A stretch of 43,596 nucleotides of DNA from Desulfovibrio sp. GTDB lineage: Bacteria > Desulfobacterota > Desulfovibrionia > Desulfovibrionales > Desulfovibrionaceae. Shown one piece after another: positions 4,086-29,666 of the stretch (position 1 is its first letter; each line of letters starts with the position of its first letter). The stretch lies in assembly GCA_031290615.1 (NCBI GenBank), contig JAITNF010000049.1, forward strand, positions 1 through 43,596, written 5' to 3'. The translations under genes and the position numbers were made by a program. The notes below the pieces were generated by a model. The model was not told the DNA's origin. It did no database searches and worked only from the letters and a program-made list of their open reading frames with translations.

Positions 4086-4112
4086 GTTTTTTCCTGTTGG
4101 AGAAAAAATCAA

Positions 4113-4705
4113 GCCCGAACACTCGGCGTGTTCGGCGTAGGTGAATTGCGCGTCATCGGTGTGTTGCCGTAAATTTTTTGGGCGCCGGCTTTTTTTATTG
4201 GGTGAACAATCTGAATTCAGATTACATATTTTTATGTAAAATGTCGAGTGTCTTCACGGCGGATGTCAGGGCTGACGCATCCAAAACCAGCGATTATTTG
4301 GAATAACAGGGCGTTATGAAATCATATTTAAAAAAATTATGTAGTAATTTAAGACTATTACAGACTTAACGCGTCTGTCCTGCGGCGGATGTTTCTTCCG
4401 TGTTGCGCCGCCCTATATGCTGACAATCTTGCGGACTCTGTTCTGGAACAGATGGAACTCATGACGCATTCATTGGCATTCTGTGCTGTGACGCTGATCA
4501 GGATGTCGCCGCGGTGACGCCGCACTCAAGGCCCGGTTCTGCTTTGACGTGGTCAGTCTGACCCCTTTGGCCGGATTCACGGGTTCGGGGCGTGAGGGTA
4601 CCGCTGTCTTCATGGTTATGACCGCTGAGGAATGAAGTGGTGGCAAAAATGCGCATCTTTCTGTTGCCGCTGAAAAATAAATCCTGATAAAACCCTCCCG
4701 ACGGC
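4113..4705. other. Intergenic region between hisD and rpmF, possibly holding a decayed gene
   Basis: No intact gene. A short inverted repeat, CGAACAC TCGGC GTGTTCG, lies at 4116-4134, close upstream of hisD. Around 4470-4640 on the plus strand, two protein-like stretches in different frames (AFIGILCCDADQDVAAV, then ALKARFCFDVVSLTPLAGF ending in a TGA) suggest a frameshifted remnant, which I could not identify. The rest is AT-rich and featureless. Confidence 0.35.
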
Positions 4706-4734
4706 TGGACAACAGCATAAAAATTTACTATACT
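4706..4734 (+). promoter_or_regulatory. Sigma70-type promoter for the rpmF-plsX-fab operon
   Basis: A -35 box TGGACA (4706-4711) and a -10 box TATACT (4729-4734) are separated by exactly 17 bases. Both are one mismatch from consensus. It faces rpmF, about 220 bases ahead of its start codon. This is a by-eye prediction. Confidence 0.55.
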
Positions 4735-4955
4735 TATCACTCTTAATTCGATTTTCAGCATTATTGATCAGTAATTCCTTATATGATCTGAAACTTCCCC
4801 CTCCTAGGGAGGAGCAATCCATAACGGCTCTTGTCCGTAGGGAATGGAGTTAGTTGGCGGACGGAGAGTACTGTGGATTAAAACCATATGGAATCAAATT
4901 TATTCACAAACGCTGTACGGCATTAATGATGCCGCACGGCGACGAGGAGACTTTC

Positions 4956-5141
4956 ATGGCTGTTCAACAGAATAAAAAATCCCGTTCCCGCAAGGGGATG
5001 CGCCGTTCTCACGACCATATTCCCACACCCTCCGTTATTTTTTGCTCCTGTGGGGAGCCCACGCTACCCCACAGCGTTTGTCCGGCCTGCGGTTCCTACA
5101 AGGGCCGTAAGGTGGTTAAAAGCAAGAGCAAAGAGTCCTAG
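4956..5141 (+). CDS. rpmF: 50S ribosomal protein L32
   Basis: L32 is a small zinc-ribbon protein of the large ribosomal subunit. The 61 residues begin [20 protein letters not shown], the typical L32 N-terminus, and contain the CSCG...CPACG metal-binding ribbon. I chose ATG at 4956 because of a strong ribosome site, GAGGAGA, at 4944-4950. The same frame is open back to 4854, but those 34 extra codons do not resemble L32. It leads the fatty-acid gene cluster, the usual rpmF-plsX arrangement in many bacteria. Confidence 0.96.
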
Positions 5142-14049: not shown

Positions 14050-16314
14050 ATGATTTCTATGCCGAAAAATCTGCCTCATCCTCAATTGCCGAAAAATACT
14101 GAAGTTGTCTTGCAAAAACGTTATTTACGCAAAGAATTTGACGGCGAGATTCAGGAAACGCCCAGAGATCTTTTTTGGCGTGTGGCCGCGACCATCGCCG
14201 GGCAGGAAGTCAACTATGAGCAGTCTTTTCACAAGGCGGAAGAACTTGCGTGTGATTTTTACCATTTGATGATAAACTGGAAATTTCTGCCCAATTCCCC
14301 CACGCTGATGAATGCGGGAACTGATCTGGGGCAGCTTTCCGCCTGTTTTGTCCTGCCTGTGGGCGACTCCATCGAGGAGATTTTTGACGCCGTAAAACAC
14401 GCGGCCATGATACACAAATCCGGCGGCGGCACCGGCTTTTCTTTTTCCCGCCTGCGCCCGGGCAAGAGCCGCGTCGGCTCTACAGGCGGCGTGGCTTCCG
14501 GTCCAGTTTCTTTTCTGCGCATCTTCAATACGGCCACGGAGCAGATCAAGCAGGGCGGCACGCGGCGCGGCGCAAATATGGGCATTTTGCGCGTGGATCA
14601 CCCCGATATTCTGGAATTTATCCGCGCCAAAGAAAAGGAAGGTGAATTCAACAATTTCAACCTTTCCGTGGGTCTGACGGAAGCCTTCATGCAGGCTGTG
14701 GAAAAGGACGAATCCTACGATTTGCGTACACCCGACACCGGTGAAGTAAAGGAGCGCCTGCGCGCTAGCGACGTCTTTGACCTGCTTGTCAAAAAAGCAT
14801 GGCAGTCCGGGGATCCCGGCATCGTCTTTCTGGATCGCATCAACCGCGACAACCCAACGCCGGAACAGGGCGAGATGGAATCCACCAACCCCTGCGGCGA
14901 ACAGCCCCTTTTGCCCTATGAGGCGTGCAACCTGGGTTCCCTTAACTTGGCCCCGTTCTATGTGCCTGGTCATAATAAAGAGGATGACCCGGCCAAAAAC
15001 GGCATAGACTGGGAAGAACTCCGGAGGGCGGTGCAGCTTGCCGTGCGCTTTCTGGACAATGTCATTGATGCCTCGCGTTTTCCCCTTGAGCGTATTGATC
15101 GGACCGTACGCAAAAACCGTAAGGTCGGCCTCGGCGTCATGGGTTTTGCCGATCTGCTTTATGAACTGGGCATAGCCTACAATTCGGAGCAGGGAGTCCA
15201 ATTGGCCGAGCGAGTCATGGGCTTTATTCAGGAGGAAGGACACAAGGCTTCGAGCACGCTTGCCGGGGAGCGCGGTCCTTTTCCCGCCTATCCGGAATCC
15301 GTGTACGCCAAACAGAAAAAGGGTCCTTACCGCAACGCCACGGTCACCACCATAGCGCCCACGGGAACCCTTTCCATCATTGCCGGTTGCTCCTCGGGTG
15401 TGGAGCCCCTCTTCGCCCTCTGCTTCACGCGCAATATTCTGGACGGCGAGCGGCTTGTAGAAGTGAATCCGCATTTTGAGACGGCCCTCGCCGAGGCCGG
15501 CCTCGCCGGGCACGAAATCATGGACAGCATTGTTGCCAAGGGATCTATACAGGATATGAACTTTCTGCCGGCAACGTTGCGCCGTATTTTTGTGACGGCC
15601 ATGGACATAGATCCCATCTGGCATCTGCGGATGCAGGCGGCCTTTCAGCGCCATACGGACAACGCGGTTTCCAAAACGGTCAATCTGCCCAACAGCGCGA
15701 CCGAGCGGGATATTTATGATATTTATCGGGCGGCCTACAGGGAAGGCTGCAAGGGCGTCACCGTTTACCGCGACGGCTGTAAAAGCGTGCAGGTGCTGGC
15801 AACCGGCGAAGGCCAGAAAAAAATGGACGTTGGCGTGGGCGATCCTGACTCCAAATATATTTCCTCTGTGCGCAAGCGACCAGACATGGTTCAGGGCTTT
15901 ACCCAGAAGGTACAGACTGGCTTGGGCGCCATGTACCTGACCGTGAACGAGGTGGACGGTCAGCCCTTTGAGGTTTTTGCCACTATTGGCAAATCCGGAC
16001 GTTCCATCACGGCAAAGGCCGAGGCCATAGGCCGGCTTGTTTCTCTGGCCCTGCGCTCAGGGGTGCATGTGCGGGATGTGGTGACACAAATAAAGGGCAT
16101 AGGCGGCGAACACCCAGTTTTTCGCGGTAAGGGGCTGCTTCTCTCCATCCCCGACGCCATTGCCTGGGTGCTGGAAAAGCGCTATCTCAATCACGCGAAC
16201 ATCGGGGAAGTCAACGATCTGGAAGCCCAGCGCTGCTCAGAATGCGGCGAAATTCTGGTGTGTCAGGAAGGTTGTCTTATTTGCCAGGCGTGCGGTTTTT
16301 CCCGTTGCGGATAA
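14050..16314 (+). CDS. nrdJ: Adenosylcobalamin-dependent (class II) ribonucleoside-diphosphate reductase
   Basis: This enzyme makes deoxyribonucleotides using adenosylcobalamin as radical source, so it works without oxygen. The 754-residue chain has the reductase core, including SACFVLPVGDSI, the GGGTGFSFSRLRP loop, and the NPCGEQPLLPYEACNLGS segment with the Asn-x-Cys-x-Glu active site. The C-terminal tail is Cys-rich (CSECGEILVCQ then CLICQACG), as in the NrdJ/NrdZ type. There is no N-terminal ATP cone. ATG at 14050 has AGGA nine bases upstream. A second in-frame ATG lies at 14059. Confidence 0.95.
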   Translation: MISMPKNLPHPQLPKNTEVVLQKRYLRKEFDGEIQETPRDLFWRVAATIAGQEVNYEQSFHKAEELACDFYHLMINWKFLPNSPTLMNAGTDLGQLSACFVLPVGDSIEEIFDAVKHAAMIHKSGGGTGFSFSRLRPGKSRVGSTGGVASGPVSFLRIFNTATEQIKQGGTRRGANMGILRVDHPDILEFIRAKEKEGEFNNFNLSVGLTEAFMQAVEKDESYDLRTPDTGEVKERLRASDVFDLLVKKAWQSGDPGIVFLDRINRDNPTPEQGEMESTNPCGEQPLLPYEACNLGSLNLAPFYVPGHNKEDDPAKNGIDWEELRRAVQLAVRFLDNVIDASRFPLERIDRTVRKNRKVGLGVMGFADLLYELGIAYNSEQGVQLAERVMGFIQEEGHKASSTLAGERGPFPAYPESVYAKQKKGPYRNATVTTIAPTGTLSIIAGCSSGVEPLFALCFTRNILDGERLVEVNPHFETALAEAGLAGHEIMDSIVAKGSIQDMNFLPATLRRIFVTAMDIDPIWHLRMQAAFQRHTDNAVSKTVNLPNSATERDIYDIYRAAYREGCKGVTVYRDGCKSVQVLATGEGQKKMDVGVGDPDSKYISSVRKRPDMVQGFTQKVQTGLGAMYLTVNEVDGQPFEVFATIGKSGRSITAKAEAIGRLVSLALRSGVHVRDVVTQIKGIGGEHPVFRGKGLLLSIPDAIAWVLEKRYLNHANIGEVNDLEAQRCSECGEILVCQEGCLICQACGFSRCG

Positions 16315-16389: not shown

Positions 16390-16755
16390 TCAACATTTGA
16401 AAAGGCTGATCAGGCTGAGCACGGTTATGAGCAGAGCCGCGCCGTAGCACAGTCGCGCGCGTCCGGCGGTCCAGGCCTTGAGATCGTGCAGGCAATGCAC
16501 AATGCGGTGCAGTCCGTACCAGGCCGTCAGCGAGATAAAGAGGGCAAGCAGAAGACGCCCGAAAAAGGTATTTATAAATTTATAGAACAGCGCCGGATCA
16601 TCTCCGCTCCCGAAGTAGGGATACAGCAACAGAAGGGAGAGGAAGAGCGCCGGAGCGCAGATGGCGCTGAACATGCCGCCCACTCCGAACAATCCCCAGA
16701 ATATCGGCTCGTTCGTCCGTTTGCTGGTTCCTCGGTGGTTTGTCGTGTCGTTCAT
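16390..16755 (-). CDS. frdD: Fumarate reductase membrane subunit D
   Basis: FrdD is one of two membrane anchors that bind menaquinol and hold FrdAB at the inner side of the cytoplasmic membrane. The 121 residues include NEPIFWGLFGVGGMFSAI, close to the E. coli FrdD start, and YGLHRIVHCLHDLKAW, close to its second half. Three hydrophobic helices are visible. I chose ATG at 16755 because AAGGAGA precedes it. The open frame extends 29 codons upstream into frdC sequence without FrdD similarity. It is the last gene of the operon. Confidence 0.92.
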   Translation of the reverse strand: MNDTTNHRGTSKRTNEPIFWGLFGVGGMFSAICAPALFLSLLLLYPYFGSGDDPALFYKFINTFFGRLLLALFISLTAWYGLHRIVHCLHDLKAWTAGRARLCYGAALLITVLSLISLFKC

Positions 16756-16766
16756 TGATAGTCTCC

Positions 16767-17126
16767 TTAAACTACGGACAATAATAACGTCAGAACGCTG
16801 AATCCGACGGTAACTGCCCACAGGCCTTTCATCAAGCTGCATAGTTTCTCTTCCGGAAGATTCAACGCCTTGGGCGTCAAATCAAACCAGGTTTTGGTGT
16901 GCAGCACCGCCGCCAGCAGGGCCATAAAGCTGAGTAGGCAGATAATGGGGTTCTGGACAAGCGTGGCAAAGGTTTTCGGCGAAAAGAGAAAGAGTAGAAG
17001 GAACAGACTCGCAAGGACGGAAAAGACGGAGCTTGTCTCGCGCAGCATGTAAAAGCGGTAATAGGGATTGCTCTTCCACCACCAGCAGTCGATTTCTTTC
17101 ACATAGGGCTTACGCTTTGTTGCCAT
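16767..17126 (-). CDS. frdC: Fumarate reductase membrane subunit C
   Basis: FrdC is the other membrane anchor of the quinol:fumarate reductase. The 119 residues start [18 protein letters not shown] and contain YYRFYMLRE and [14 protein letters not shown]. These match E. coli FrdC, including the Glu known there to take part in menaquinol oxidation (last residue of YMLRE). This is the haem-free, two-anchor (type D) architecture, unlike the single dihaem cytochrome b anchor (type B) described for Desulfovibrio gigas. Its start overlaps the end of frdB by 17 bases, with AGGAGG as ribosome site. Confidence 0.92.
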
Positions 17127-17877
17127 GAGAGGCCTCCTTGTTTTTCTTGCAGTTCAAGATGGAAGTCACAAAGCTCAGGGCGCTTTCCACCTTGCACTGT
17201 TGCAGCGCCGCCGCCGGGTCGGCATGCTTGGGGCACACTTCGGAGCAATATCCCACAAAGGTGCAGGACCAGACGCCGGTTTTTGTGTTCATGGTCTGTA
17301 CGCGTTCGTCCCGCCCGTGATCCCGGCTGTCGAGATTGTACCGATGACCGATGGTAATGGCAGCCGGTCCCAGGAAGGCTGGATTGAGCCCGAACTGCGG
17401 GCAGGCTGCGTAGCACAGTCCACAGTTTATACACATGGAAAACTTGTGGTAGCGGGCCAGTTCCGTCGGCGTCTGCGTGTTGGGGCCCTCTGCCGGTTTG
17501 CGGGCATTGCCGATGACATAGGGTTTGAGGGCCTCTATATACTCCAGAAAATGTGTGAGATCCACCACTAGGTCCCTTTCAACAGGGAAGTTGGCCAGAG
17601 GCTCCACAATGGCTCCGTCGGAATAATTCCTCAGGAAGGTCTTGCAGGCGAGTTTGGGTACGCAGTTGACCATGACGCCGCAGGAACCGCAAATGGCCAT
17701 GCGGCAGGAACTGCGAAAAGACAGATCCGGGCACACACAGTCCTTGAGGTATTGCAGGCCGTCAAGGAGCGAGGTCTGATCGTCCCACGGAATTTCATAC
17801 GGCACAAGATACGGAGCATTGTCTTTTTCCGGATTGTACCGTTGTACCTTCAGAAGCAGTTTTTTCGCATCAGCCAT
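17110..17877 (-). CDS. frdB: Fumarate reductase iron-sulfur subunit
   Basis: FrdB carries electrons from the membrane quinol to the flavin subunit through three clusters. In the 255 residues I see the [2Fe-2S] motif ([11 protein letters not shown] with a later Cys), the [4Fe-4S] motif [12 protein letters not shown], and the [3Fe-4S] region [14 protein letters not shown]. The segments [15 protein letters not shown] and [15 protein letters not shown] are strikingly like E. coli FrdB. ATG at 17877 (MADAKKLLL) has AAGGAG upstream. It overlaps the frdA stop by 8 bases. Confidence 0.95.
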
Positions 17878-19666
17878 TGCCCTTCTCCTTGTTTTTATTG
17901 TCTTGAGAAGCGCCTTCAGCTCCGTACACACGTTTGGCCGGCTGCAGTTTGGTTATTTTTACCGACTCGTATTCAATGCGCGGCGCGGCGTCCTTGTTAT
18001 AATACGCCAAAGAATGCTTGAGGAAGTTTTCGTCGTCGCGTTGCTGGTAGTCTTCGTCAAGCCGCTGGTGCGCTCCACGCGATTCACGGCGTTCTATGGC
18101 TGAATGGGCCATAGCCTCCGCCACATTCAGACCATACGATATTTCAATCAGGTTGAGCACATCCGTGTTGAAGACGGAAGCGGAGTCGACGACGCCCACG
18201 TTCCTGACGCGGTCCTGCAACTCGGCGAGCTTGTCGACGGTGTTCCGCATGAGTTCTTCAGAACGGTAAATGCCGCATCCCTCTTCCATGGAGAGGCCCA
18301 TTTCGTTGCGAATGGTTACCCATTTTTCCTTGCCTTTCTGCTGCAGGATGGTCTTGAACCGGCTTTCCGTATCATCGGCCTGGGCGTCCAGAGCAGTGGG
18401 CGACACTTTCACGCCTTCCTTGCTACGCTGCGCGGCCCAGCGCCCAGCGGCCTCGCCGAAGACCAGAAGTTCGGCCAGGGAGTTGGAGCCCAGTCGATTG
18501 GCCCCGTGCATGCCGATAGACGAGCACTCACCGACGGCGAAGAGTCCCTTGATGCTAGTTTCACAATTTTTGTCAGTGGCTATACCACCCATGGTGTAGT
18601 GCGCCGTCGGGCGAACCGGGATGGGATCGTTGATGGGGTCAATGCTCATGTACTGCATGGACAACTCGCGAATAAAGGGCAGGCGCTCCAGAATTTTTTC
18701 CTTCCCAAGGTGGCGAATATCCAGGAGGGAGACGTCTCCGTGCGGAGTGCTGACCATGCGGCCAGCCCGCCATTCGTGCCAGAAAGCCTGCGAAACCTTG
18801 TCGCGCGGTCCAAGTTCCATGAATTTCGGTTTTGGCTGACCCATGGGGGTTTCCGGTCCGAGTCCATAATCCTGCAGATAGCGGTATCCGTTTTTGTTGA
18901 GCATCAACCCGCCTTCTCCGCGGCTCGCTTCCGTAATCAGGATACCGGACCCCGGCAGACCTGTCGGGTGGTACTGCACGAATTCCATGTCTCTCAGAGC
19001 GACGCCGCGGCGATAAGCGATGGACATGCCGTCGCCCGTGACAATACTCGCGTTGGTGTTGTAGCGGTAAACGCGGCCGGCTCCGCCGGTGGCGAACACT
19101 ACCGCGCCGGCGCGGATCTGCAGCAGTTCTCCTTCAATCATGTTCAGCGCGACAACTCCGGCGGCTCGTCCGTCCTCCTCTAGGAGATCAAGGATGAAAT
19201 GTTCGTCCAGACGGCGAATCTGCGGGTACTTCAAGCTGGTCTGAAACAGGGTGTGCAGCATGTGGAAACCGGTTTTGTCCGCCGCGAACCATGTGCGGGG
19301 CACTTTCATGCCCCCGAAGTTGCGCACGGCGATGCTTCCGTCTGGATTGCGGCTCCAGGGGCAGCCCCACTGTTCCATCTGAATCATTTCGCGCGTACAG
19401 TTCTGGACAAAATATTCCACCACGTCCTGTTCGCAAAGCCAGTCTCCGCCGGAAACGGTGTCGCTGAAGTGCAGTTCGAGAGAATCGTTGTCCTGCCAGA
19501 CGGCAGCCGAGCCGCCCTCCGCCGCCACCGTATGGCTGCGCATGGGGTATACTTTCGAGACAAGAGCGATATTCAGGCCTGGGCTAGTTTCCGCCGCCGC
19601 AATAGCGGCACGCAGACCGGATCCGCCGCCGCCTATAATGGCAATATCGAAGTTCAGCGTTTGCAC
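17870..19666 (-). CDS. frdA: Fumarate reductase flavoprotein subunit
   Basis: FrdA holds covalent FAD and reduces fumarate to succinate. The 598-residue chain starts (GTG) [20 protein letters not shown]. It has the flavinylated His in [16 protein letters not shown] (about residue 45), then [53 protein letters not shown], and [13 protein letters not shown]. It matches E. coli FrdA almost throughout, even to a Lys/Glu-rich C-terminus ending KEKGNG (KEKANG in E. coli). I chose GTG at 19666 because GGAGG lies eight bases upstream. A TTG at 19672 is too close to that site. Confidence 0.95.
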
Positions 19667-19701
19667 ATTCAAAACCTCCGGAAGTAAAGATGCCTATATA
19701 T

Positions 19702-19713
19702 GTTAGTACTAAC
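19702..19713 (-). promoter_or_regulatory. 12-bp perfect palindrome upstream of frdA
   Basis: GTTAGTACTAAC reads the same on both strands. It lies 36 bases before the frdA start codon, next to an AT-rich TATATA segment that could be a -10 box. It sits in the 112-base gap between larA and frdA. It could be an operator for a dimeric regulator, but I cannot name one. Confidence 0.3.
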
Positions 19714-19778
19714 CAACCACCCACAACTGTGAAAAAATGAAATAACAATGAAAATGCTCCGGTCATACGCCTGATTGT

Positions 19779-21044
19779 TCAGTGACGGGGTACCGGCAAC
19801 ACCAGCGAACCTTCGGGGAGATAGGCCCATGACGCGGAGGTGCCGTGTTTCTCCAGTGCCGCATCCACAGCTTCCTGAAGCGTGGCGGCTTTTTTGGCCC
19901 AAAGGAGCGAAGTTTCGTCCGTAGTCAATGCGGAAATCCAGTAAACTTCCTTTTCCGCCGCAACCTTGGCAAAGGCGAAGGCCTTGTGTGCGCCCAGCAC
20001 AAAGTTGGCCCTGATTTCCCGCGTCACTTTTGTCGGTTCCCAGCGGCGGCGTATCCATTCTTCAAAAATGGCTTCTCCCCAGCTCTCCGTGCATTCCGCT
20101 GCGACAATGATGGTTCCGCCGGGCCGCGTAATGCGGTCGGCGTGGTCAAGGCCCTTTTGGGCTTGATACACGTTGATGTCGCGCGGGCGGCCGCTGGCGC
20201 AAGTGACGGTGACATCCACAAAGTTGTCAAAAGGAGCTTCATACATGTAAGCGGAAACGTCAACGGCCTTGCGCCAGGCCGCATGCACGTCGCCGCCGGC
20301 CACATAGACAACTTCTTTGGCAGAGTTGGTGACCACATTCAGAATAAAGTCCACGCCCACCTGTCTGGCCGCTTCAATCATTTCGTTGCTCACGGGATTC
20401 TTGTCTATATGGGGCAGAGAATCCATGAGTTCCACCATGCGGGCGTGGTTTTTTTTCACGATTTCCTTGGAGGCCAGGCCGGGCAAGATGGATTTTCTAC
20501 CGCCGGAATATCCCGCGAAATAGTGGGGCATGACAACGCCTAGGGTAATCAGAAAGTCGGCTTCCACAACCATGCGGTTGACGATGAAATCATAACCGGA
20601 TTTTAATGTGCCTAGTTTTGTCAGGTTGGATTGGTCCGTGCCGTCGTGATTGATTATTTTGAAGCGGCGGACAATTTCTTCGCCGTAAACCTCAAGGTTC
20701 TGTTTTTCGGTATGCGGATCATGAATGCCCAAGGCGATGACAAGCGTTACCTGTTCGTCCTTGATGCCGACCTCGGCAAACATTTCCAGCAGGGGAGGAA
20801 AAAGTATCCCGTATGGCGTTGGGCGCGTGATATCGTTGACGACAATGACGACTTTCCGCGGCTTTTTGGCGCGCAGCATGTCCAAGAGCGGCGGCGTGCC
20901 CACGGGATTTTTCAGCATTTCGCGCGTTTGTCCCAAGGGATCCTGCAATTTTTCCCTGCGGCCGGAGAGCATGGTTGTGGGTTTGATGCTGTCTGGAAGG
21001 GTAAAATGCAGACAAGATCTGCCGTAGGCCAGTTCATACTGCAT
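19779..21044 (-). CDS. LarA-family nickel-pincer-dependent racemase
   Basis: LarA enzymes interconvert the stereoisomers of 2-hydroxyacids with a covalently bound nickel-pincer nucleotide. The 421 residues show the conserved NDITRPTP (Arg), ALGIHDPHT (catalytic His), MPHYFAGYSGGRKSILPG (second catalytic His, and the Lys that binds the cofactor) and KNHARM (nickel-binding His), so it looks active. ATG at 21044 has GAGGAA upstream. The frame extends 35 codons further without family similarity. It lies between a dicarboxylate transporter and frdA, not in a lactate locus, so malate or a similar acid is a plausible substrate (inference). No larB, larC or larE, needed for cofactor synthesis, is in the window. 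Confidence 0.85.
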   Translation of the reverse strand: MQYELAYGRSCLHFTLPDSIKPTTMLSGRREKLQDPLGQTREMLKNPVGTPPLLDMLRAKKPRKVVIVVNDITRPTPYGILFPPLLEMFAEVGIKDEQVTLVIALGIHDPHTEKQNLEVYGEEIVRRFKIINHDGTDQSNLTKLGTLKSGYDFIVNRMVVEADFLITLGVVMPHYFAGYSGGRKSILPGLASKEIVKKNHARMVELMDSLPHIDKNPVSNEMIEAARQVGVDFILNVVTNSAKEVVYVAGGDVHAAWRKAVDVSAYMYEAPFDNFVDVTVTCASGRPRDINVYQAQKGLDHADRITRPGGTIIVAAECTESWGEAIFEEWIRRRWEPTKVTREIRANFVLGAHKAFAFAKVAAEKEVYWISALTTDETSLLWAKKAATLQEAVDAALEKHGTSASWAYLPEGSLVLPVPRH

Positions 21045-21124
21045 GGCTTTTTCCTCACACAACAGTTGGGCTGTTCGATTTGAATTATTGGAGCAGGTTG
21101 CGCAACAGGGCTTGGTTCCTCCGC

Positions 21125-21167
21125 CGAGCAGCAAATCCTGCTGTTTCAAAGAAGAACTTGCTGCTCG
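21125..21167 (-). other. Stem-loop between transporter and racemase genes
   Basis: Perfect 10-bp arms, CGAGCAGCAA (21125-21134) and TTGCTGCTCG (21158-21167), enclose 23 bases. It lies in the 145-base gap after the transporter stop. No T-run follows on the minus strand, so it may protect or process the mRNA rather than terminate it. Confidence 0.45.
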
Positions 21168-21189
21168 CCTGTTATTGCGGTCTGCAAAA

Positions 21190-22644
21190 TCAGAAGGACA
21201 GAGCTGTGGGAAACCAGTACATGGCGAATACTACGTATACGGCGAAGAAAATGAAGCCGTATATGGCCCCGAACGCCCAGAAGGTTTTCTTCTCAATATA
21301 GCCGGTATTGTAATACACCGGGCTCGGGCCTGTGCCGTACGGCGTGAGTATGCCCATGATGCCGAGACTTCCGGCAAGCATCATGCCGAGCAGCTTCATG
21401 TCAATGCCTGGCACGGCCGCTCCGGTCGCCAGCAGCACGGGCATGATGGCTGTGGTGTGCGCCGTGAGGCTGGCAAAGAAATAGTGCGAGAAATAGAAAA
21501 ACGCCAGTAGGCCGAACAGCACGATAGCCGTGCTTGAGCCGGCAAGATGGCTTGCGAAGATCACGCCGAGCCACTTGAGGAAGCCGACGCGTGCAAGGCC
21601 CGAGGCCATGGCCACCAGGGTGGCGAACCATGTCAGGGTATTCCAGGCGCTTTTGTTGGAAACGACGTCGTCCCAATTGATGATGTCCAGAATGACCATC
21701 AGGCAGAGCACAAAGATAGCGACCATCGTGGCGTTCATGACTTTGCTGCCGAAAATCCAGAGCAGCAGGGCGAGCAGGGCCATGATGGCCATGAGCCATT
21801 CCTTGCGGGTGGCGGTGCCGAGTTTTTCAAGCTCGCTCGTGGCCCATTTGGGCGTCTCGGGGAATGCTTTCTGGGTCGGAGGATAAATCGCATAGGTAAT
21901 CAGCGGAACCAAAATGAAAAGTATGACGCCCGTCGGCAGCATGCACCAGAACCACTGCATCCAGCTCATGGTTACCGCCGCGGGATCAGTCACGCCCGGC
22001 GCTTTGCCGATGAGCGATATGGCCAGCAGGTTCGGCGCGAGGCCCGTGAAGAACATGGAACTGGTGACCGACGTTGTGGCAATGCATATCCACATCAGGT
22101 ACGCGCCGATTTTACGCGGCTCTGAATTGGGAAGGGAGCCGTACATGGGCGGGATGTTCTTGACCACAGGGTATACCGAACCAGCGCTACGGGCGGTGTT
22201 GGATGGGATGAACGGGGCTAGGGCGAGGTCGGAGAGGGCCGTGGCAAAACCGAGGCCCAAAGCCTTGCTGCCGAGTTTTTTCATGAGGAGCAGGGCAATG
22301 CGTTTGCCGAGGCCTGTCTTTTCGTAACCCATGGCGAACATGTAGGCGACAAAAATCAGCCACACAGTGCTGTCCACAAAACCGGAAAGCGCCCAGTTGA
22401 GAGAGCCGCCCAACGTGGCGGCTTTGCCGTCCGGCATGGGCACCAGTCGCAGGGATCCTGCCAAGGTAACGCCGATAAGTCCAACGGCGGAGTTGGGTAG
22501 AGGTTCAAGAATGAGAGCAAGAATGACGCCAAGGAATATGCCGAGGTAACGCATGGCGTTTACCGTCAGTCCGTCCGGAACCGGCAGAAGCCAGATCAGG
22601 GCCGTGGCGGTAATGGGAATAATAGCGCTTACTCTTTTATCCAT
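21190..22644 (-). CDS. Divalent anion:Na+ symporter (DASS family), C4-dicarboxylate/citrate type
   Basis: An inner-membrane transporter of the SLC13/DASS (CitT/TtdT/YflS-like) family for di- or tricarboxylates. The 484 residues are mostly hydrophobic, with more than ten membrane segments. Family segments include FIPSNTARSAGSVYPVVKNI (an SNT substrate-binding motif) and SSTAIVLFGLLAFFYFSHYF. The C-terminal PYGTGPSPVYYNTGYI is typical of CitT/TtdT-like members. ATG at 22644 (MDKRVSAIIPI) is supported by GGAG. Neighbouring fumarase and fumarate reductase genes point to malate, fumarate or citrate as substrate, possibly in exchange for succinate (inference). Confidence 0.88.
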   Translation of the reverse strand: MDKRVSAIIPITATALIWLLPVPDGLTVNAMRYLGIFLGVILALILEPLPNSAVGLIGVTLAGSLRLVPMPDGKAATLGGSLNWALSGFVDSTVWLIFVAYMFAMGYEKTGLGKRIALLLMKKLGSKALGLGFATALSDLALAPFIPSNTARSAGSVYPVVKNIPPMYGSLPNSEPRKIGAYLMWICIATTSVTSSMFFTGLAPNLLAISLIGKAPGVTDPAAVTMSWMQWFWCMLPTGVILFILVPLITYAIYPPTQKAFPETPKWATSELEKLGTATRKEWLMAIMALLALLLWIFGSKVMNATMVAIFVLCLMVILDIINWDDVVSNKSAWNTLTWFATLVAMASGLARVGFLKWLGVIFASHLAGSSTAIVLFGLLAFFYFSHYFFASLTAHTTAIMPVLLATGAAVPGIDMKLLGMMLAGSLGIMGILTPYGTGPSPVYYNTGYIEKKTFWAFGAIYGFIFFAVYVVFAMYWFPTALSF

Positions 22645-22724
22645 GGTTTTCTCCGAGTGGATGGGGGTGCCGGAAAACATCAGGGGGCGGCCTCAACGCC
22701 GCCTGCCCGGAGTCGAAACACGTC

Positions 22725-23282
22725 TTAGCTTTGCTTGTAGGGCGCCTGACCTTGGGAGTAGTAGTCATGTCCATCGGCGTCTATGACAACAATGGCGGGA
22801 AAATCCGTGACTTCCATTGCAGCGACGGCTTCTGGTCCCAGTTCTTCATAGGCAAGGACTGTATATTTTTTGATGCTCCGGGCTATGAGCGCGCCTGCCC
22901 CACCCACTGCGGCAAGGTAGGGCACTCCGTATTTTTTTATAGCTTCCACAACCTCGGGCTTGCGATAGCCCTTGCCGATCATGCCCTTGAGTCCTTGAGC
23001 AATGAGAGCGGGAGTGTAGGCGTCCATGCGGCCAGATGTCGTCGGACCTGCGGAGCCGATGGGATGGCCGGGTTTGGCTGGCGTGGGACCGACATAATAG
23101 ACGACTCCGCCGTTGAGATCCACAGGAGGTTTTTCGCCGCGCTGCAGAGTTTCCACAAGGCGTTTGTGCGCCGCGTCGCGGGCGGCTATGATGACTCCGC
23201 TGATGAGCACACTGTCGCCGGCGCGCAGGGAACGCGCCGTCGCGTCGTCAAAGGGTGCGGTAATACGTTTCGGTTCTGACAT
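22725..23282 (-). CDS. Class I fumarate hydratase, beta subunit
   Basis: This is the C-terminal half of the oxygen-sensitive iron-sulfur fumarase (also the L-tartrate dehydratase beta fold), which makes an active enzyme with the alpha subunit. The 185 residues contain LRAGDSVLISGVIIAARDAA, VYYVGPTPAKPG, IGSAGPTTSGRMD, and KGYRKPEVVEAIKKYG. ATG at 23282 (MSEPKRITAP) has AAGGAGG five bases upstream. It follows the alpha subunit by 10 bases. Confidence 0.92.
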   Translation of the reverse strand: MSEPKRITAPFDDATARSLRAGDSVLISGVIIAARDAAHKRLVETLQRGEKPPVDLNGGVVYYVGPTPAKPGHPIGSAGPTTSGRMDAYTPALIAQGLKGMIGKGYRKPEVVEAIKKYGVPYLAAVGGAGALIARSIKKYTVLAYEELGPEAVAAMEVTDFPAIVVIDADGHDYYSQGQAPYKQS

Positions 23283-23292
23283 ACGTGCCTCC

Positions 23293-24138
23293 TTACAGCA
23301 CCACTTCCGCATGGCGGGCGGCATGGCAGTTAATATTCACGGCAACAGGCAGGCTCGCTATATGGGTAGGATACCATTCCACGTTTACTTTCAGGGCTGT
23401 TGTTCTACCGCCAAGACCGGCTGGGCCGATACCGGTTTTGTTGACAAGGGTGAGCAGCTCTTCTTCAAAGGCCGCATAACGGGGATCGGGATTTTTTGAT
23501 TCCACATCGCGCGCGCATGCCCATTTGGCGCAGAGACAGGCCGTTTCCATATTTCCGCCGATACCGACGCCCACGATCATGGGCGGACAGGAGTTTGGGC
23601 CGGCGGTGACGACGGTGTCCAGAACAACTTTTTTGACGCCTTCAATGCCGTCAGCGGGGACAAGCATTTTCAGAATGCCCTTGTTTTCCGACCCTGCTCC
23701 CTTGGGCGCTAGTCGCAGACGCAGACCGTTCCCCGGTACTATGCGGATGTGGATAACGGCCGGTGTGTTGTCCCTTGTGTTTTTGCGTTCAAAAAGCGGC
23801 TCGGCCACAACGGATTTGCGCAGATATCCATCAACATAACCGCGACGGATTCCCCCGTTGATGGCGTCCTCAAAATTGCCTCCGATAATGCGCACACCCT
23901 GTCCGAGTTCGGCAAAAACCACGGCCAGCCCGGTGTCCTGACAAATGGGCATGGTTTCGTCCCTGGCGATATCTGCGTTTTTCAGAAGCTGACCAAGAAC
24001 ATCCTTGCCCACAGGCGAAGGTTCGGATTTCAGCGAGGTTCTGAATCCGTCGTAAACATCTTTCGGTAAAACACAGTTTGCCTTGATGGCCAGATCGGCT
24101 ATGGCCTTTGTAATAGTTTCCGAGGAGATTTCCCGCAT
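23293..24138 (-). CDS. Class I fumarate hydratase, alpha subunit
   Basis: The alpha subunit binds the catalytic [4Fe-4S] cluster that interconverts malate and fumarate. The 281 residues have the three expected cluster Cys regions: MPICQDTGLAVVF, GPNSCPPMIVGVGIGG, and ETACLCAKWA. The split alpha/beta form is common in strict anaerobes. L-tartrate dehydratase is a close relative and cannot be excluded from sequence alone. ATG at 24138 has GGGAGG upstream. It is the first gene of the presumed eight-gene block that continues to frdD. Confidence 0.92.
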   Translation of the reverse strand: MREISSETITKAIADLAIKANCVLPKDVYDGFRTSLKSEPSPVGKDVLGQLLKNADIARDETMPICQDTGLAVVFAELGQGVRIIGGNFEDAINGGIRRGYVDGYLRKSVVAEPLFERKNTRDNTPAVIHIRIVPGNGLRLRLAPKGAGSENKGILKMLVPADGIEGVKKVVLDTVVTAGPNSCPPMIVGVGIGGNMETACLCAKWACARDVESKNPDPRYAAFEEELLTLVNKTGIGPAGLGGRTTALKVNVEWYPTHIASLPVAVNINCHAARHAEVVL

Positions 24139-24177
24139 ACAGTTTGCCTCCCTTGTTTTGTGCCATTATTAGCAGGT

Positions 24178-24400
24178 ACAGCTTTGGCGTCAATAACAAA
24201 GGCGGGATATTTTGTCTTCAGCCAAGACCCCACTCTTGCCGGATCCCGCTCAAAAGCACGTTCGGGCCGGTTTTTGAGCAGGCAGTCCCCATGCTTTCAT
24301 GTAGCGCCCCACTGTCCACTTGGAGACGGACATCCAAAAATAGTTTGGAAGGCTCAAGGACCGGCGCAGAATTGTCATGCGCTATGACCCGATGCGCTTA
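24178..24400 (-). pseudogene. IS630-family transposase remnant
   Basis: On the minus strand, SKWTVGRYMKAWGLPAQKPA is followed after a one-base frame change by AFERDPARVGSWLKTKYPAF. Both fit the N-terminal helix-turn-helix and linker of IS630 transposases (usual pattern TVGRYLKRWGL.PQKP ... YP.I...AKA). Only about 70 residues remain and no catalytic Asp region is seen. It lies directly upstream of the fumarase gene in the same orientation, so the operon's control region may include IS-derived sequence. Confidence 0.7.
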
Positions 24401-24460: not shown

Positions 24461-27400
24461 TCACGCTTCGCGCGCAGGAAGCGCGTTATTTTCAGCGGCG
24501 TCCTGTCCCCTGAAACGCTGGCCGTAATGTTTTTGCAGGCGGCGGGAGATTTTTTCCATATAATAGTAGTAGACCGGTGTGATGTAGAGGGTTACTATTT
24601 GGGAAAAGCATAAGCCGCCCACAACGGCGAGTCCCAAGGGCCGCCGCGCCTCCGCCCCGGTTCCCAGACCGATAGCGATGGGCAGAGCGCCCATAAGTGC
24701 AGCAATGGTGGTCATCATAATGGGTTTGAAACGCACATGGCAGCCTTTGGTGATGGCCTCAAGCGGCGTCAGGGAGGAATCTCGCCGCTGAGCCTCCAAG
24801 GCGAAGTCAAGCATCATGATGGCGTTTTTCTTAACAATGCCAAGCAGCATAATCATGCCCACAAAGCCGTATAGGTCAAGTTCCATGCCAAAGAGCCACA
24901 AGGTTGTGAGTGCCCCGAAGCCAGCCGAGGGCAGCCCTGAAAGTATGGTCAGGGGATGTATGAAGCTCTCATAGAGAATACCCAGCACGAGATAGATAAC
25001 CACAATGGCCAGAATCAGAAGCCAGCCCATGCCCGATAGGGATTTTTGGAAAGCTTGGGCCGTGCCTTGGGATTCCGCATGGACGGAATCGGGAAGAAGC
25101 GGTCGCGCCGTTGCCTCCACGGTAGCCACTGCTGGCCCCAGAGCGACGCCGGGCCTGAGATTGTAGGCAATGGTCACTGCCGGAAATTGTCCGGCATGGT
25201 TGACAGCTATGGGTCCGATGCCCGGTGAAAGCTGCGCCAGCGAATCCAGCGGCACCAGCGAACCGTCTTTGGAGCGCACATAGAGCCGGGAAATGCTGGC
25301 GGCCTCCTGCTGGAAACGTTTCTGCAATTCCACAAAAACCCTGTAGTCATTGGTCGGTGCGTAGATGGTTGAAATCTCGCGTGAGCCGTAGGCGGATTGC
25401 AGGGCAAGCTCTATTTGCTGCGGGCTCACGCCCAAGGCCGCCGCCCGGTTGCGGTCGATGGTGACGCGCAATTCGGGATTTTTGATCTGCAGGTCGCTGT
25501 TCACGTCTTGCAGTTGCGGCAGTTTGCGTAGAGCTTTTTCCACATTCTGGGCGCAGTCGTACAGGGCCACTATGTCCGGCCCGGAAAGTGTGTACTGGTA
25601 CAACGCCTTGGAGGAGCGGCCGCCGATATTGACGGCGGGTGGCACGCGTAGAAAAACCCGCATAGCCGGAGATACGTTCAGCTCCCTGCGCAGACGCTCC
25701 GCCACTGCGTCAATGCCGGGCCGTTTATCGTGCGGTACAAGGTGTATCATCACAGTGCCGTTGTTCATGCTCTGACTGTCACCCACAATGCCCACCACAG
25801 AGTTGAACCTAGCAATGAATGGCTCATTTTCCAGCACGGTATCCAGGCTGTGCTGGGCATCCGTCATGCCACTGAAGGAAATGCCTTGTTCAGCGTCCGT
25901 GCTGCCCACAAGAAACCCCATGTCTTCGGTAGGCAGAAAACCTTTGGGCATAGTGATGCCCAACCACACAGTCAGCAGGAGCAGAAGTATGGATGCGCCG
26001 AAGGCGGCCAAACGGCGCCGCAGGACAAAAGCCAGCGAGTCGGCGTAGCGCATGGCAAGCCAGTCGAAAGCCCGTTCCAGCTTGCCGTACACGCCTTCGT
26101 AGCCAGCCCTGTGTTGGACGCCGGTCTTCAGAAAATAGGCGCAGAGCATGGGTGTGAGTGTGAGGGAAACCACGCCTGAACACAATATGGCTCCGATGAT
26201 CACGACCGCGAATTCACGGAAAAGTCGCCCCACAATTCCGCCCATGAATAATACTGGTATGAAGACTGCCGCCAAGGAGATGGTCATGGAAACAATGGTG
26301 AAGCCGATTTCAGCCGAACCGTCGTAGGCGGCAGCAAGCGGATTTTTGCCGGATTCCTGGTGGCGGACAATGTTTTCCAGCATGACGATAGCATCGTCCA
26401 CCACAAAACCCACGGCGAGCGTCAGGGCCATGAGGGAAAGATTGTCCAAGCTGTAGTTCAGCACGGACATGACGGCAAAAGTGGAAATGACGGACATGGG
26501 CAGGGCTAGACTCGGGATGATGGTGGCGGGCAGGTTGCGCAGAAAAAGAAAAATGACCAGTACCACCAGAAAAACCGTAAGTACCAAAGTAAGTTTGACG
26601 TCCGCCACAGATTCCCGGATGGACTCCGAACGGTCATAAAAAAATTCCACTTCGACGGAAGGCGGCAGTTGCTGCAGCAGACTTGGAAAAAGCCTGCGGA
26701 CGGCGTCCACTACCTGGACGGTGTTGGCTCCGGGCTGGCGCTCTAGGGCAAGGGTTATGCAGGGCACGCCGCCGTTGCCCCAGGCAGTTTGTTTATCCTG
26801 CCGCACGCTGTCCACTACGACGCCCAGATCATTGAGGCGTACCGGCGCGCCGTTGCGCCAAGTTACCACAACTTCGCCGAAGGCTTGGGCGTTGAACAAC
26901 TGGCCGGACGACTTGATGAAACTGGCGCGTTTGGCGCCGTCTAGGGAGCCTGTGGGCAGCATGGAATTGGCGTCAGCCACCGCGTCGGCCACTTCGTCAA
27001 TGCCTAGGCCCCGCGAGGCTAGTTCGTCCGGGTCAAGCTGAATGCGCACAGCGTACTGTTTTTGTCCGTAAATGGTCACCTGCGCCACGCCAGCCACCAT
27101 GGAAAGGCGCTGGCCGATGAAGGTATCCGCGTATTCGTTCAGGGCATAGAGCGGAAGGGTAGAGGAGGAAACCCGTAGATATAGGATGGGCAGATCAGCC
27201 GGGTTGACCTTGCGGAAGCTTGGGGGCGTCGTCATGTTGGGGGGCAGCCGGCGTTGGGCAAGACCGATGGCTGATTGCACGTCCAGCGCGGCCGCGTCAA
27301 TGTCTCGGTCAAGGTCAAACTGGATGGTGATGCGGCTACGGCCGGTGGCATTGACCGAGGAGATGGAGTCAATGCCAGCTATGGTGAAAAACTGTTTTTC

Positions 27401-27601
27401 CAGCGGCGTCGCCACAGAGGCGGCCATGGTTTCCTGGTCAGCGCCGTCGAGGTCGGCCATGACCATGATTGTGGGGAAGTCCACATTGGGCAACTGGTTC
27501 ACCGGCAGGGAAAGATATCCAGCCGAGCCGAAGAAGAACATTCCCAGCATGAGCAGGGTAGTGGCTACAGGGCGACGGATGAAAAAAGCGGTAATATTCA
27601 T
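24461..27601 (-). CDS. RND-family (HAE1) efflux pump inner-membrane protein, AcrB/MdtB-like
   Basis: A proton-driven drug-efflux transporter that normally works with a periplasmic adaptor and an outer-membrane channel. The 1046 residues have the standard layout: an N-terminal helix then LPVNQLPNVDFPTIMV, a large periplasmic loop, helices with VVDDAIVMLENI (the proton-relay Asp pair), a second periplasmic loop, and a C-terminal helix bundle. The length is full. ATG at 27601 has no clear ribosome site. No adaptor (AcrA-like) or TolC gene lies on either side, which is unusual. Confidence 0.93.
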   Translation of the reverse strand: MNITAFFIRRPVATTLLMLGMFFFGSAGYLSLPVNQLPNVDFPTIMVMADLDGADQETMAASVATPLEKQFFTIAGIDSISSVNATGRSRITIQFDLDRDIDAAALDVQSAIGLAQRRLPPNMTTPPSFRKVNPADLPILYLRVSSSTLPLYALNEYADTFIGQRLSMVAGVAQVTIYGQKQYAVRIQLDPDELASRGLGIDEVADAVADANSMLPTGSLDGAKRASFIKSSGQLFNAQAFGEVVVTWRNGAPVRLNDLGVVVDSVRQDKQTAWGNGGVPCITLALERQPGANTVQVVDAVRRLFPSLLQQLPPSVEVEFFYDRSESIRESVADVKLTLVLTVFLVVLVIFLFLRNLPATIIPSLALPMSVISTFAVMSVLNYSLDNLSLMALTLAVGFVVDDAIVMLENIVRHQESGKNPLAAAYDGSAEIGFTIVSMTISLAAVFIPVLFMGGIVGRLFREFAVVIIGAILCSGVVSLTLTPMLCAYFLKTGVQHRAGYEGVYGKLERAFDWLAMRYADSLAFVLRRRLAAFGASILLLLLTVWLGITMPKGFLPTEDMGFLVGSTDAEQGISFSGMTDAQHSLDTVLENEPFIARFNSVVGIVGDSQSMNNGTVMIHLVPHDKRPGIDAVAERLRRELNVSPAMRVFLRVPPAVNIGGRSSKALYQYTLSGPDIVALYDCAQNVEKALRKLPQLQDVNSDLQIKNPELRVTIDRNRAAALGVSPQQIELALQSAYGSREISTIYAPTNDYRVFVELQKRFQQEAASISRLYVRSKDGSLVPLDSLAQLSPGIGPIAVNHAGQFPAVTIAYNLRPGVALGPAVATVEATARPLLPDSVHAESQGTAQAFQKSLSGMGWLLILAIVVIYLVLGILYESFIHPLTILSGLPSAGFGALTTLWLFGMELDLYGFVGMIMLLGIVKKNAIMMLDFALEAQRRDSSLTPLEAITKGCHVRFKPIMMTTIAALMGALPIAIGLGTGAEARRPLGLAVVGGLCFSQIVTLYITPVYYYYMEKISRRLQKHYGQRFRGQDAAENNALPAREA

Positions 27602-27684: not shown

Positions 27685-28688
27685 AGATTTGTCAACAGCA
27701 CCTGGTCTGCCTGGGTTCCAATGATTGTCGGCAAACCTGGCGCTGGTCTTGTAACGGGCCCAGTTTATACTACTACAAACTAGACAGTTGCAGGACTTAA
27801 GAGCTTCACGACATTGCCGGTTATCCCCTCAAGTATTGTGAAGGTAGCCGATATAACTGAACCAACACTTCCGGCTACAAAGGCGCAGGTCTATACGACC
27901 GTCAATTATGGCACGGATGGAGCGTGGAAAAATCCAGAACAATTTGTTACGCCTGGTACCTATTGTATGAGGGGAAATGACTATACTATTCTGGATGTGA
28001 CTTCTTCCAGCTGGGGAGTAACGGTTTTACCGGCGTATTATGGTAATGCTCCGTTACCTTACTATAACTACATAACGCAAATTGCCATTAACAACTTCCT
28101 TGGAACAAGTAATGTTCCTGGACGAGTATTCATTCGTCAGCGGAAAGGCCAATATGTTGATGGAACAGAGACGCCTACCTGGACTGGCTTGAGATATTTA
28201 CGACAAACACCAGGGATATAGGCCCGAGTACGCTTGATACTACATATACTCCAGGATGGTACTTCTCCGAGACGGGTATTACGATTAAAGGAGCTACAAC
28301 TAATGGCTTTACTCTAGAGGTTATGGAAGGATTATTCAGAGGTGTACACCAGGCAGATGTTTTACAACGTCTAACCGGAAGGCACGCCAGTACAGGTGTA
28401 GATGTTATTTGGGAAAGGCGTCGTCGTATAGGGACAACAGATACCTGGAGAGATTGGGCACAAGTCCTAATAGCCGAAAATAGCCAATCTACAGCGGTAA
28501 CTACCGTCTATACTAGTACTCCTCAAACAATAGCAGATCAAAAGATTTTCACCACCAATCCTGTCATCCCGGGAGCAAGTGCAGTCATCCTGGATGCCAC
28601 AGATACGACTCATGCTGCTACCAGGGCTGAGGTTTACGCGACAATCCAGGCAATGCTGCAAGATTATCTTGGTGGGCAAACAGGCTAA
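27685..28688 (+). pseudogene. Modular phage tail-fibre-like protein, broken
   Basis: Two copies of one module occur on the plus strand. The first contains STWSAWVPMIVG, then VYTTTN-stop-TVAGLKSFTT, then PVIPSSIVKV and ATKAQVYTTV. The second contains DTWRDWAQVLIA, VYTSTPQTIADQKIFTT, PVIPGASAVI and ATRAEVYATI. Aligning them shows that the TAG at 27781-27783 replaces the Gln codon (CAG) of the other copy. The frame also shifts near 28171-28177, between TETPT and YLDWLEIFTTN. Such repeats with W..W and Thr-rich stretches resemble phage or tailocin tail fibres. AT content is higher than in flanking genes, which suggests foreign origin. A TAA at 27682-27684 closes the 5' side. Confidence 0.55.
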
Positions 28689-29590: not shown

Positions 29591-29666
29591 TGGTGGGCAG
29601 TACAGGACTTGAACCTGTGACCCTCGCCGTGTAAGGGCGATGCTCTCCCAACTGAGCTAACTGCCC
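29591..29666 (-). tRNA. tRNA-Val (anticodon TAC)
   Basis: The minus strand folds into a full cloverleaf. The acceptor stem is GGGCAGT / ACTGCCC, the D-arm is TTAGCTCAGTTGGGAGAGC, and the anticodon stem is TCGCC / GGCGA around CTTACAC, giving anticodon TAC (valine). The T-arm carries GTTCAAGTC. The 3' CCA is encoded in the DNA. tRNA genes are common phage integration targets, and phage-like remnants lie next door. Confidence 0.95.

Follow-up and report, generated by a model that had tools for sequence, protein, structure and literature searches.

Frd-based fumarate respiration has been described in two reduced-genome relatives of the organism considered here, 'Candidatus Desulfovibrio trichonymphae' Rs-N31 and Desulfovibrio ZnDsv-02, whose genomes measure 1.4 and 1.6 Mb (PMC7608387). 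Both are reported to be without malate dehydrogenase, and sulfate and fumarate respiration with H2 has been proposed for them (PMC7608387); the fumarate-respiration half of the scheme set out below is already published for these bacteria. The discoverers of malate racemase named its in vivo role as an important remaining question and suggested growth on both malate enantiomers (PMC7583248). In PMC8307300, the one open-access paper found to bring malate racemase together with fumarate reductase, with Desulfovibrio or with fumarase, the enzyme figures as a line in a reaction list. Here we describe a window of 43,596 nucleotides (the whole stretch of DNA that was analysed, contig JAITNF010000049.1 of the Desulfovibrio sp. 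assembly GCA_031290615.1), in which a malate-racemase-like gene, larA, lies between genes for a fumarase pair and a DASS-family transporter on one side and the fumarate reductase genes frdABCD on the other.

The cluster is probably a respiration module for D,L-malate and fumarate. In this scheme, the DASS exchanger would bring in malate, as either enantiomer, or fumarate in return for succinate; a nickel-pincer racemase would convert D-malate to L-malate, and a class I fumarase would convert L-malate to fumarate; a quinol:fumarate reductase of the E. coli type would then reduce fumarate to succinate, to be exported by the same exchanger. Hydrogen or a similar donor would supply the electrons. 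The scheme is built on the observed gene order, protein families and residue conservation, on the genes for cofactor synthesis, on the recurrence of the cluster in related genomes and on purifying selection; flux would run from malate to exported succinate. A stronger version, that of a dedicated D-malate respiration unit allowing H2-consuming, reduced-genome Desulfovibrio to use both enantiomers as electron-acceptor precursors through one malate/succinate loop, is offered more tentatively, as a possibility that falls somewhat short of even. An earlier note on this DNA had proposed uptake of malate or a similar acid, possible racemisation, dehydration to fumarate and quinol-linked reduction to succinate. 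Homology and the recurring neighbourhood support dicarboxylate transport, a malate-type racemase, a class I fumarase and a quinol:fumarate reductase, while simple uptake gives way to the exchanger residues of the transporter.

Recurrence of the cluster in related genomes

Eight open reading frames (ORFs), all on the minus strand, occupy positions 16390-24138, with fumA-alpha first and frdD last, and were assigned by Pfam and NCBIfam to fumarase alpha, fumarase/hydro-lyase beta, DASS transporter, LarA, FrdA, FrdB, FrdC and FrdD; the order, strand and limits given in the earlier note are thereby borne out. When the same order was sought in other genomes, as that note had advised, it was found exactly in locus L007 and, with two inserted genes, in L005 (handles in L denote loci, and those in G genomes). 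Since the eight-gene order recurs in this way, the cluster is not a chance adjacency.

These two loci, together with L006 and L008, come from four Desulfovibrio metagenome-assembled genomes that were found through LarA, so that linkage among them is biased. The insertion in L005 is a two-subunit aconitase-family hydratase between the DASS gene and larA. L008 reads hydratase-larA-fumAB-frdABCD, with no DASS match in its 19.6 kb, and L006 is divided between the strands, with fumAB-frdA opposite to DASS, hydratase and larA. Further relatives have a DASS-fumarase-frd core with another fumarase type and with the racemase inside or outside it.

FrdA of this type (E<=1e-150) occurs in 10 of 199 genomes sampled from the family, hereafter the frd genomes, and the neighbourhood counts are lower bounds, as several contigs end near the genes. 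The frd cluster contains fumAB in eight of the ten (not in G084 or G111), DASS in seven, and larA in three (G000, G063 and G123). One of the seven DASS genes, that of G158, is only 48% identical, and a still more distant family member in G123 (21% identical), which lies on the opposite strand beside larA, was not counted. Relatives of LarA were found in 51 of the 199 genomes at E<=1e-40, the threshold for larA matches, and at E<=1e-120 in two of the 395 genomes of a phylum sample, both of the window's genus.

Flanking genes mostly differ between loci, the RND-family gene upstream in L007 being only 22% identical. No mobile element, transposase or integrase was identified at the loci, where none was systematically sought, and the label 'portable' given earlier was not adopted. 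Two loci from genomes of 1.7-1.8 Mb (L096 and L097, of G084 and G111) carry frdABCD with no fumarase, DASS or racemase match in the fetched stretch.

A malate-racemase-like LarA protein

Among six NCBIfam families, LarA scores highest with LarAH6 (NF052593, 488.4 bits), ahead of LarAH5 (347.8) and lactate racemase (322), and its best match in the PDB is Mar2 (6d6z, 278 bits). Fourteen cofactor, catalytic and substrate sites were checked against the residue criteria described for malate racemases (PMC7583248, PMC11770544), and all of them agree except for a Phe after Tyr175, where Mar2 has Lys. D71, R74, H108, H174, K184, H200, Y293, Q294, K297 and H353-K354 are present, among them the residues that bind the nickel-pincer nucleotide (R74, K184 and H200) and the catalytic His pair (H108 and H174). 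As a rule, malate racemases have His or Gln followed by Lys at the positions of LarA W358 and T359 (PMC11770544); here H353 and K354, in a GAHK motif, align with the GAHK of Mar2. The HK pair is common to all 23 aligned rows and therefore does not separate subgroups. The alignment covers 23 of 34 loci, the 11 left out (L028-L038) being 31-34% identical to the window, and the site pattern is kept throughout, save that two partial rows have gaps and that G049 has Asn for Lys at one site. In this last protein (L016/L044), the Asn replaces the cofactor-binding Lys184, and the other checked residues are intact.

The same draft genome encodes larB, larC and larE, each scoring over its cut-off; TIGR00268 is taken here to be LarE. 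Furthermore, larA is under purifying selection, because dN is 0.096 and dS 0.715 between the window and L005 (0.160 and 1.187 relative to L007). Family scores and residues together describe a LarAH6-like protein, a likeness for which membership of the filed LarAH6 family is not claimed; it would work in the manner of a malate racemase, with malate as its probable substrate in vivo. Plasmid-borne relatives of the racemase (E<=1e-20) amount to 15 of 72,556 records, all below 60% identity, with the 10 listed at 27-33%.

A DASS transporter with exchanger residues

Matches of the DASS protein to solved structures (E<=0.001) are limited to LaINDY and two dicarboxylate transporters of plant chloroplasts. 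They comprise four distinct sequences, two of which were taken as LaINDY versions; 6WU1 is the one named LaINDY. Arg159, His392 and the nearby His401 of LaINDY are conserved in exchangers and absent from cotransporters (PMC7553777), R159 being the Arg at the Na1 site and H392 the His at the Na2 site. The motifs PSNTAR and HYFFASLTAH of the window protein align with LaINDY, and the equivalents of R159, H392 and H401 are all present, as is the case in all ten DASS proteins compared, the window's included. Because the protein has the exchanger Arg and both His residues, an exchange in which malate would enter and succinate would leave appears likelier than sodium-driven uptake. The latter, as the default, was set aside, the sodium-site residues being replaced as in exchangers.

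Fumarate reductase and fumarase

The reductase closely resembles that of E. coli K-12, with identities of 414/598 (69%) for FrdA, 165/244 (68%) for FrdB, 57/119 (48%) for FrdC and 50/115 (44%) for FrdD. FrdA residues H45, E50, H233, T245, E246, R288, H356 and R391, presumably the FAD-His and the dicarboxylate-binding residues, are all as in K-12, and the K-12 cysteines of FrdB are retained (11/11). FrdC and FrdD align with the chains of 1kf6, as expected of an E. coli-type FrdABCD; the best model for FrdC is PRK04987, yet the score lies below the equivalog cut-off (105.8 vs 143). In the phylum sample, FrdA at E<=1e-150 was found in five genomes of other families, at 46-56% identity. A midpoint-rooted tree of 20 FrdA rows places E. 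coli inside 14 Desulfovibrionaceae proteins (a clade of 15, 100/100), where it groups with G063 and L006 (96/91), apart from the five other Desulfobacterota rows. As it includes one gammaproteobacterium, the tree does not settle the direction or number of transfers; a gammaproteobacterial affinity of FrdABCD has been reported for two related genomes (PMC7608387). Five pattern matches for virus-borne FrdA included no relative.

The fumarase alpha subunit scores 392.3 bits with the fumarate hydratase model PRK06246 (cut-off 276) versus 169.3 with tartrate dehydratase alpha, and its best solved relative is a fumarate hydratase (7xky, 176 bits). The beta subunit exceeds the cut-offs of PRK06842, 'Fe-S-containing hydro-lyase' (261.7, cut-off 238), and of TIGR00723, FumA C-terminus/TtdB (177, cut-off 145), and reaches 90.9 bits with the tartrate dehydratase beta model, the cut-off of which is 264. 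Its best solved relative is fumarate hydratase 2 (123.7 bits), which we take to be from Leishmania. On these model scores, a tartrate dehydratase was set aside, firmly for alpha and less so for beta.

Two types of this fumarase pair, approximately 51% identical, are found in frd clusters, and a tree of 12 rows separates them at 100/100: type 1 in the window, L005 and L007, and type 2 in the remaining nine. FrdA is 72-84% identical to the window's across loci with either type. The presence of two fumarase types beside a well-conserved frdA suggests, as the simpler reading, that one pair replaced the other within the module, and it likewise suggests that the fumarase is functionally tied to frd.

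Genomic context

The source genome is a 1.59-Mb draft in 92 contigs, 93.6% complete, of which the window is one whole contig. At E<=0.001, the draft contains no other class I fumarase (PF05681 matches only fumA; class II fumarase was not searched for), no DcuA or DcuB, which a control search does find in E. coli, and no Ldh_1_C protein (malic enzyme and D-malate dehydrogenase were not searched for); an Ldh_1_C protein is present in seven of the ten frd genomes. The DASS exchanger may act in place of DcuA in this genome. The letters Im, Ncb, Hs and Md in the codes of the isolates presumably denote termite hosts. From these codes, and from the likeness to reduced-genome Desulfovibrio ectosymbionts (PMC7608387), a termite-gut origin is likely.

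Alternative explanations

Several observations weigh against a D,L-malate/fumarate module. LarA falls just under the LarAH6 equivalog cut-off (488.4 vs 500), the fumarase beta subunit lies below that of the fumarate hydratase model PRK06043 (139.4 vs 269), and the name of TIGR00785, like the PDB titles, calls proteins such as the DASS transporter sodium-coupled symporters. The gaps that flank larA, 145 bases from the DASS gene and 112 bases from frdA, leave room for separate promoters or ends. The absences of a second class I fumarase, DcuA/B and Ldh_1_C are drawn from an incomplete draft. Lastly, larA and frd are on separate contigs in four of the ten frd genomes (G078, G131, G173 and G194; two such contigs are shorter than 8 kb, which leaves the true distance open), and it has no match in three (G084, G111 and G158). 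Therefore, the frd module does not need larA.

This last point raises the question as to whether the working unit consists of DASS, fumarase and frd only, for respiration of L-malate and fumarate, with the racemase as an accessory or hitchhiker that acts in another pathway. DASS-fumAB-frd without an adjoining larA is indeed seen in the same four genomes and in G158. Conversely, no more than 10 kb separates larA from frd in 7 of 14 frd loci, a figure biased by the four of the seven that were found by LarA search, and the LarA residues and dN/dS values indicate that larA is maintained in a reduced genome. A unit confined to L-malate and fumarate is thus considered unlikely, albeit the strongest of the alternatives.

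The substrate of the racemase could instead be tartrate or one of the substituted malates, for example 3-methylmalate, in which case the hydro-lyase pair would be a tartrate dehydratase or mesaconase. Characterised malate racemases do have a side activity on tartrate (PMC11770544), a LeuCD/DmdAB-like hydratase lies upstream of larA in L005, L006, L008 and L045, and the beta subunit is matched best by the model of an unspecified Fe-S hydro-lyase, its score with the fumarate hydratase model being below cut-off. Nevertheless, both subunits score higher as fumarate hydratase than as tartrate dehydratase (392 vs 169 for alpha, with a cut-off of 276; 139 vs 91 for beta), a search of the window's genome at E<=1e-80 gave no match to the LeuCD/DmdAB-like hydratase, and fumarate is favoured as the hydro-lyase product by the direct linkage to frd; the tartrate or substituted-malate reading is improbable. 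A mainly assimilatory role, with malate or fumarate taken up for aspartate and frd serving redox balance, is very improbable: while a route from malate or fumarate to aspartate by aspartate-ammonia lyase has been proposed for related ectosymbionts (PMC7608387), a full membrane-bound FrdABCD and a succinate-exporting exchanger are better suited to respiration, and an E. coli AspA query gave no match above 60 bits in 17 loci (AspA was not searched for in the window's genome).

Respiration of D,L-malate and fumarate therefore remains the preferred reading of the cluster.

Organization of the cluster and neighbouring genes

The coordinates of the cluster are collected in Table 1, where the starts of fumB, the DASS gene, larA, frdA, frdB and frdD are likely starts, slightly off those of the longest ORFs. 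The GTG start of frdA corresponds in alignment to the start of K-12 FrdA.

Table 1. Genes of the cluster and a candidate promoter, in window coordinates.
Feature	Position	Strand	Support
fumA-alpha, class I fumarase alpha subunit, 281 aa	23293..24138	-	PF05681 376.8 bits
fumB-beta, class I fumarase-type hydro-lyase beta subunit, 185 aa	22725..23282	-	PF05683 191 bits
DASS-family dicarboxylate transporter, probable exchanger, 484 aa	21190..22644	-	TIGR00785 451 bits
larA, LarAH6/Mar2-like, probable nickel-pincer-nucleotide malate racemase, 421 aa	19779..21044	-	NF052593 488.4 bits
frdA, fumarate reductase flavoprotein, 598 aa, GTG start	17870..19666	-	TIGR01176 1024.8, cut-off 932.7
frdB, iron-sulfur subunit, 255 aa	17110..17877	-	PRK12385 416.7, cut-off 333
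frdC, membrane anchor, 119 aa	16767..17126	-	PF02300 91 bits; PRK04987 105.8
frdD, membrane anchor, 121 aa	16390..16755	-	PF02313 93.9 bits; NF003977 100, cut-off 60
Sigma-70-like promoter candidate TTGACG-17-AATAAT	24165..24193	-	10/12 consensus bases; consensus match only

Apart from the two gaps around larA, the genes are separated by 10 (fumA-fumB), 80 (fumB-DASS) and 11 bases (frdC-frdD), and frdA/B and frdB/C overlap. Five promoter-like matches were found on the minus strand between 16200 and 24600, one just ahead of fumA and the other four within ORFs; both strands together give 8, versus 4.6 (sd 2.1) in shuffles, and all are consensus matches only. No minus-strand terminator-like match lies between cluster genes, all five in the same interval being inside ORFs. 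The single promoter match upstream of fumA and the lack of an intergenic terminator match are compatible with one transcript, without showing one, and the eight genes may be co-transcribed. A 12-base palindrome before frdA (GTTAGTACTAAC, at 19702) was dropped as an operator, as the matching gaps in L005 and L007 lack it.

A gene for an AcrB-type RND pump (24461-27601) precedes the cluster on the minus strand. Downstream, a plus-strand gene for a 754-aa protein (14050-16314) is convergent with frdD and was recognized by eye, without a family search, as a ribonucleotide reductase. Between the RND gene and a tRNA-Val (29591-29666), two small plus-strand ORFs at 27814-28688 have no Pfam match and resemble phage tail-type proteins by eye.

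Aconitase-family hydratases make D-malate from maleate. The hydratase of the related loci is of the HacA/LeuC plus LeuD/DmdB type and lies at L005:8186-9957, L006:8168-9939, L008:8096-9863 and L045:5168-6926, directly upstream of larA in the first three and with a TctA gene intervening in L045; the L005 and L006 proteins do not reach the equivalog cut-offs for leuC and leuD. Its activity could be that of a hydro-lyase for maleate/D-malate or citraconate, and it would then supply D-malate to the racemase. As a D-malate source in the window's organism, this hydratase was dropped for want of a match at the threshold given above. The same hydratase adjoins an Ldh_1-type dehydrogenase at L103:2489-5438 (G063) and L104:6000-8675 (G123), and these dehydrogenases are approximately 50% identical to one in L006. 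There, the dehydrogenase gene and a LysR regulator gene occupy 3125-5100, between the fumAB-frdA and DASS-hydratase-larA halves, and the LysR protein may regulate this split cluster.

Comparison with known systems

In the open-access literature searched, supplements being outside its scope, no link between frd-based respiration and a malate racemase was found, nor was any report that combines D-malate, fumarate respiration and a racemase, or termite, racemase, Desulfovibrio and malate. Placed amid a C4-dicarboxylate exchanger, a fumarate reductase and the one fumarase of class I that the draft was found to contain, the racemase is given a direct, testable role in respiration. If a dedicated D-malate respiration unit exists, malate racemase would have a concrete physiological role, fixed beside a fumarate reductase gained by lateral transfer.

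The individual components each have a characterized counterpart. The four-subunit arrangement and gene order of frdABCD are those of E. coli K-12, where frd adjoins ampC and blc, without a fumarase, a DASS gene or a racemase in the 6.5 kb shown. LarA is like Mar2/LarAH6 of Thermoanaerobacterium thermosaccharolyticum in its cofactor, catalytic and GAHK residues, and differs in the first loop pair, which is Y-F in the window and Y-K in Mar2; the main texts of PMC7583248 and PMC11770544 mention neither fumarase nor fumarate. The exchanger-specific Arg and two His are common to the DASS protein, a probable exchanger, and LaINDY (PMC7553777).

A reduced genome and FrdABCD are shared with Rs-N31 and ZnDsv-02, whose description does not mention a racemase in its main text (PMC7608387). 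Those two bacteria both have DcuA, the malate/succinate antiporter proposed for them (PMC7608387), whereas DcuA/B went unmatched in the draft genome of the window. This comparison refines the model of low-sulfate life for H2-consuming, small-genome Desulfovibrio, in that malate/succinate exchange may use a DASS protein instead of DcuA.

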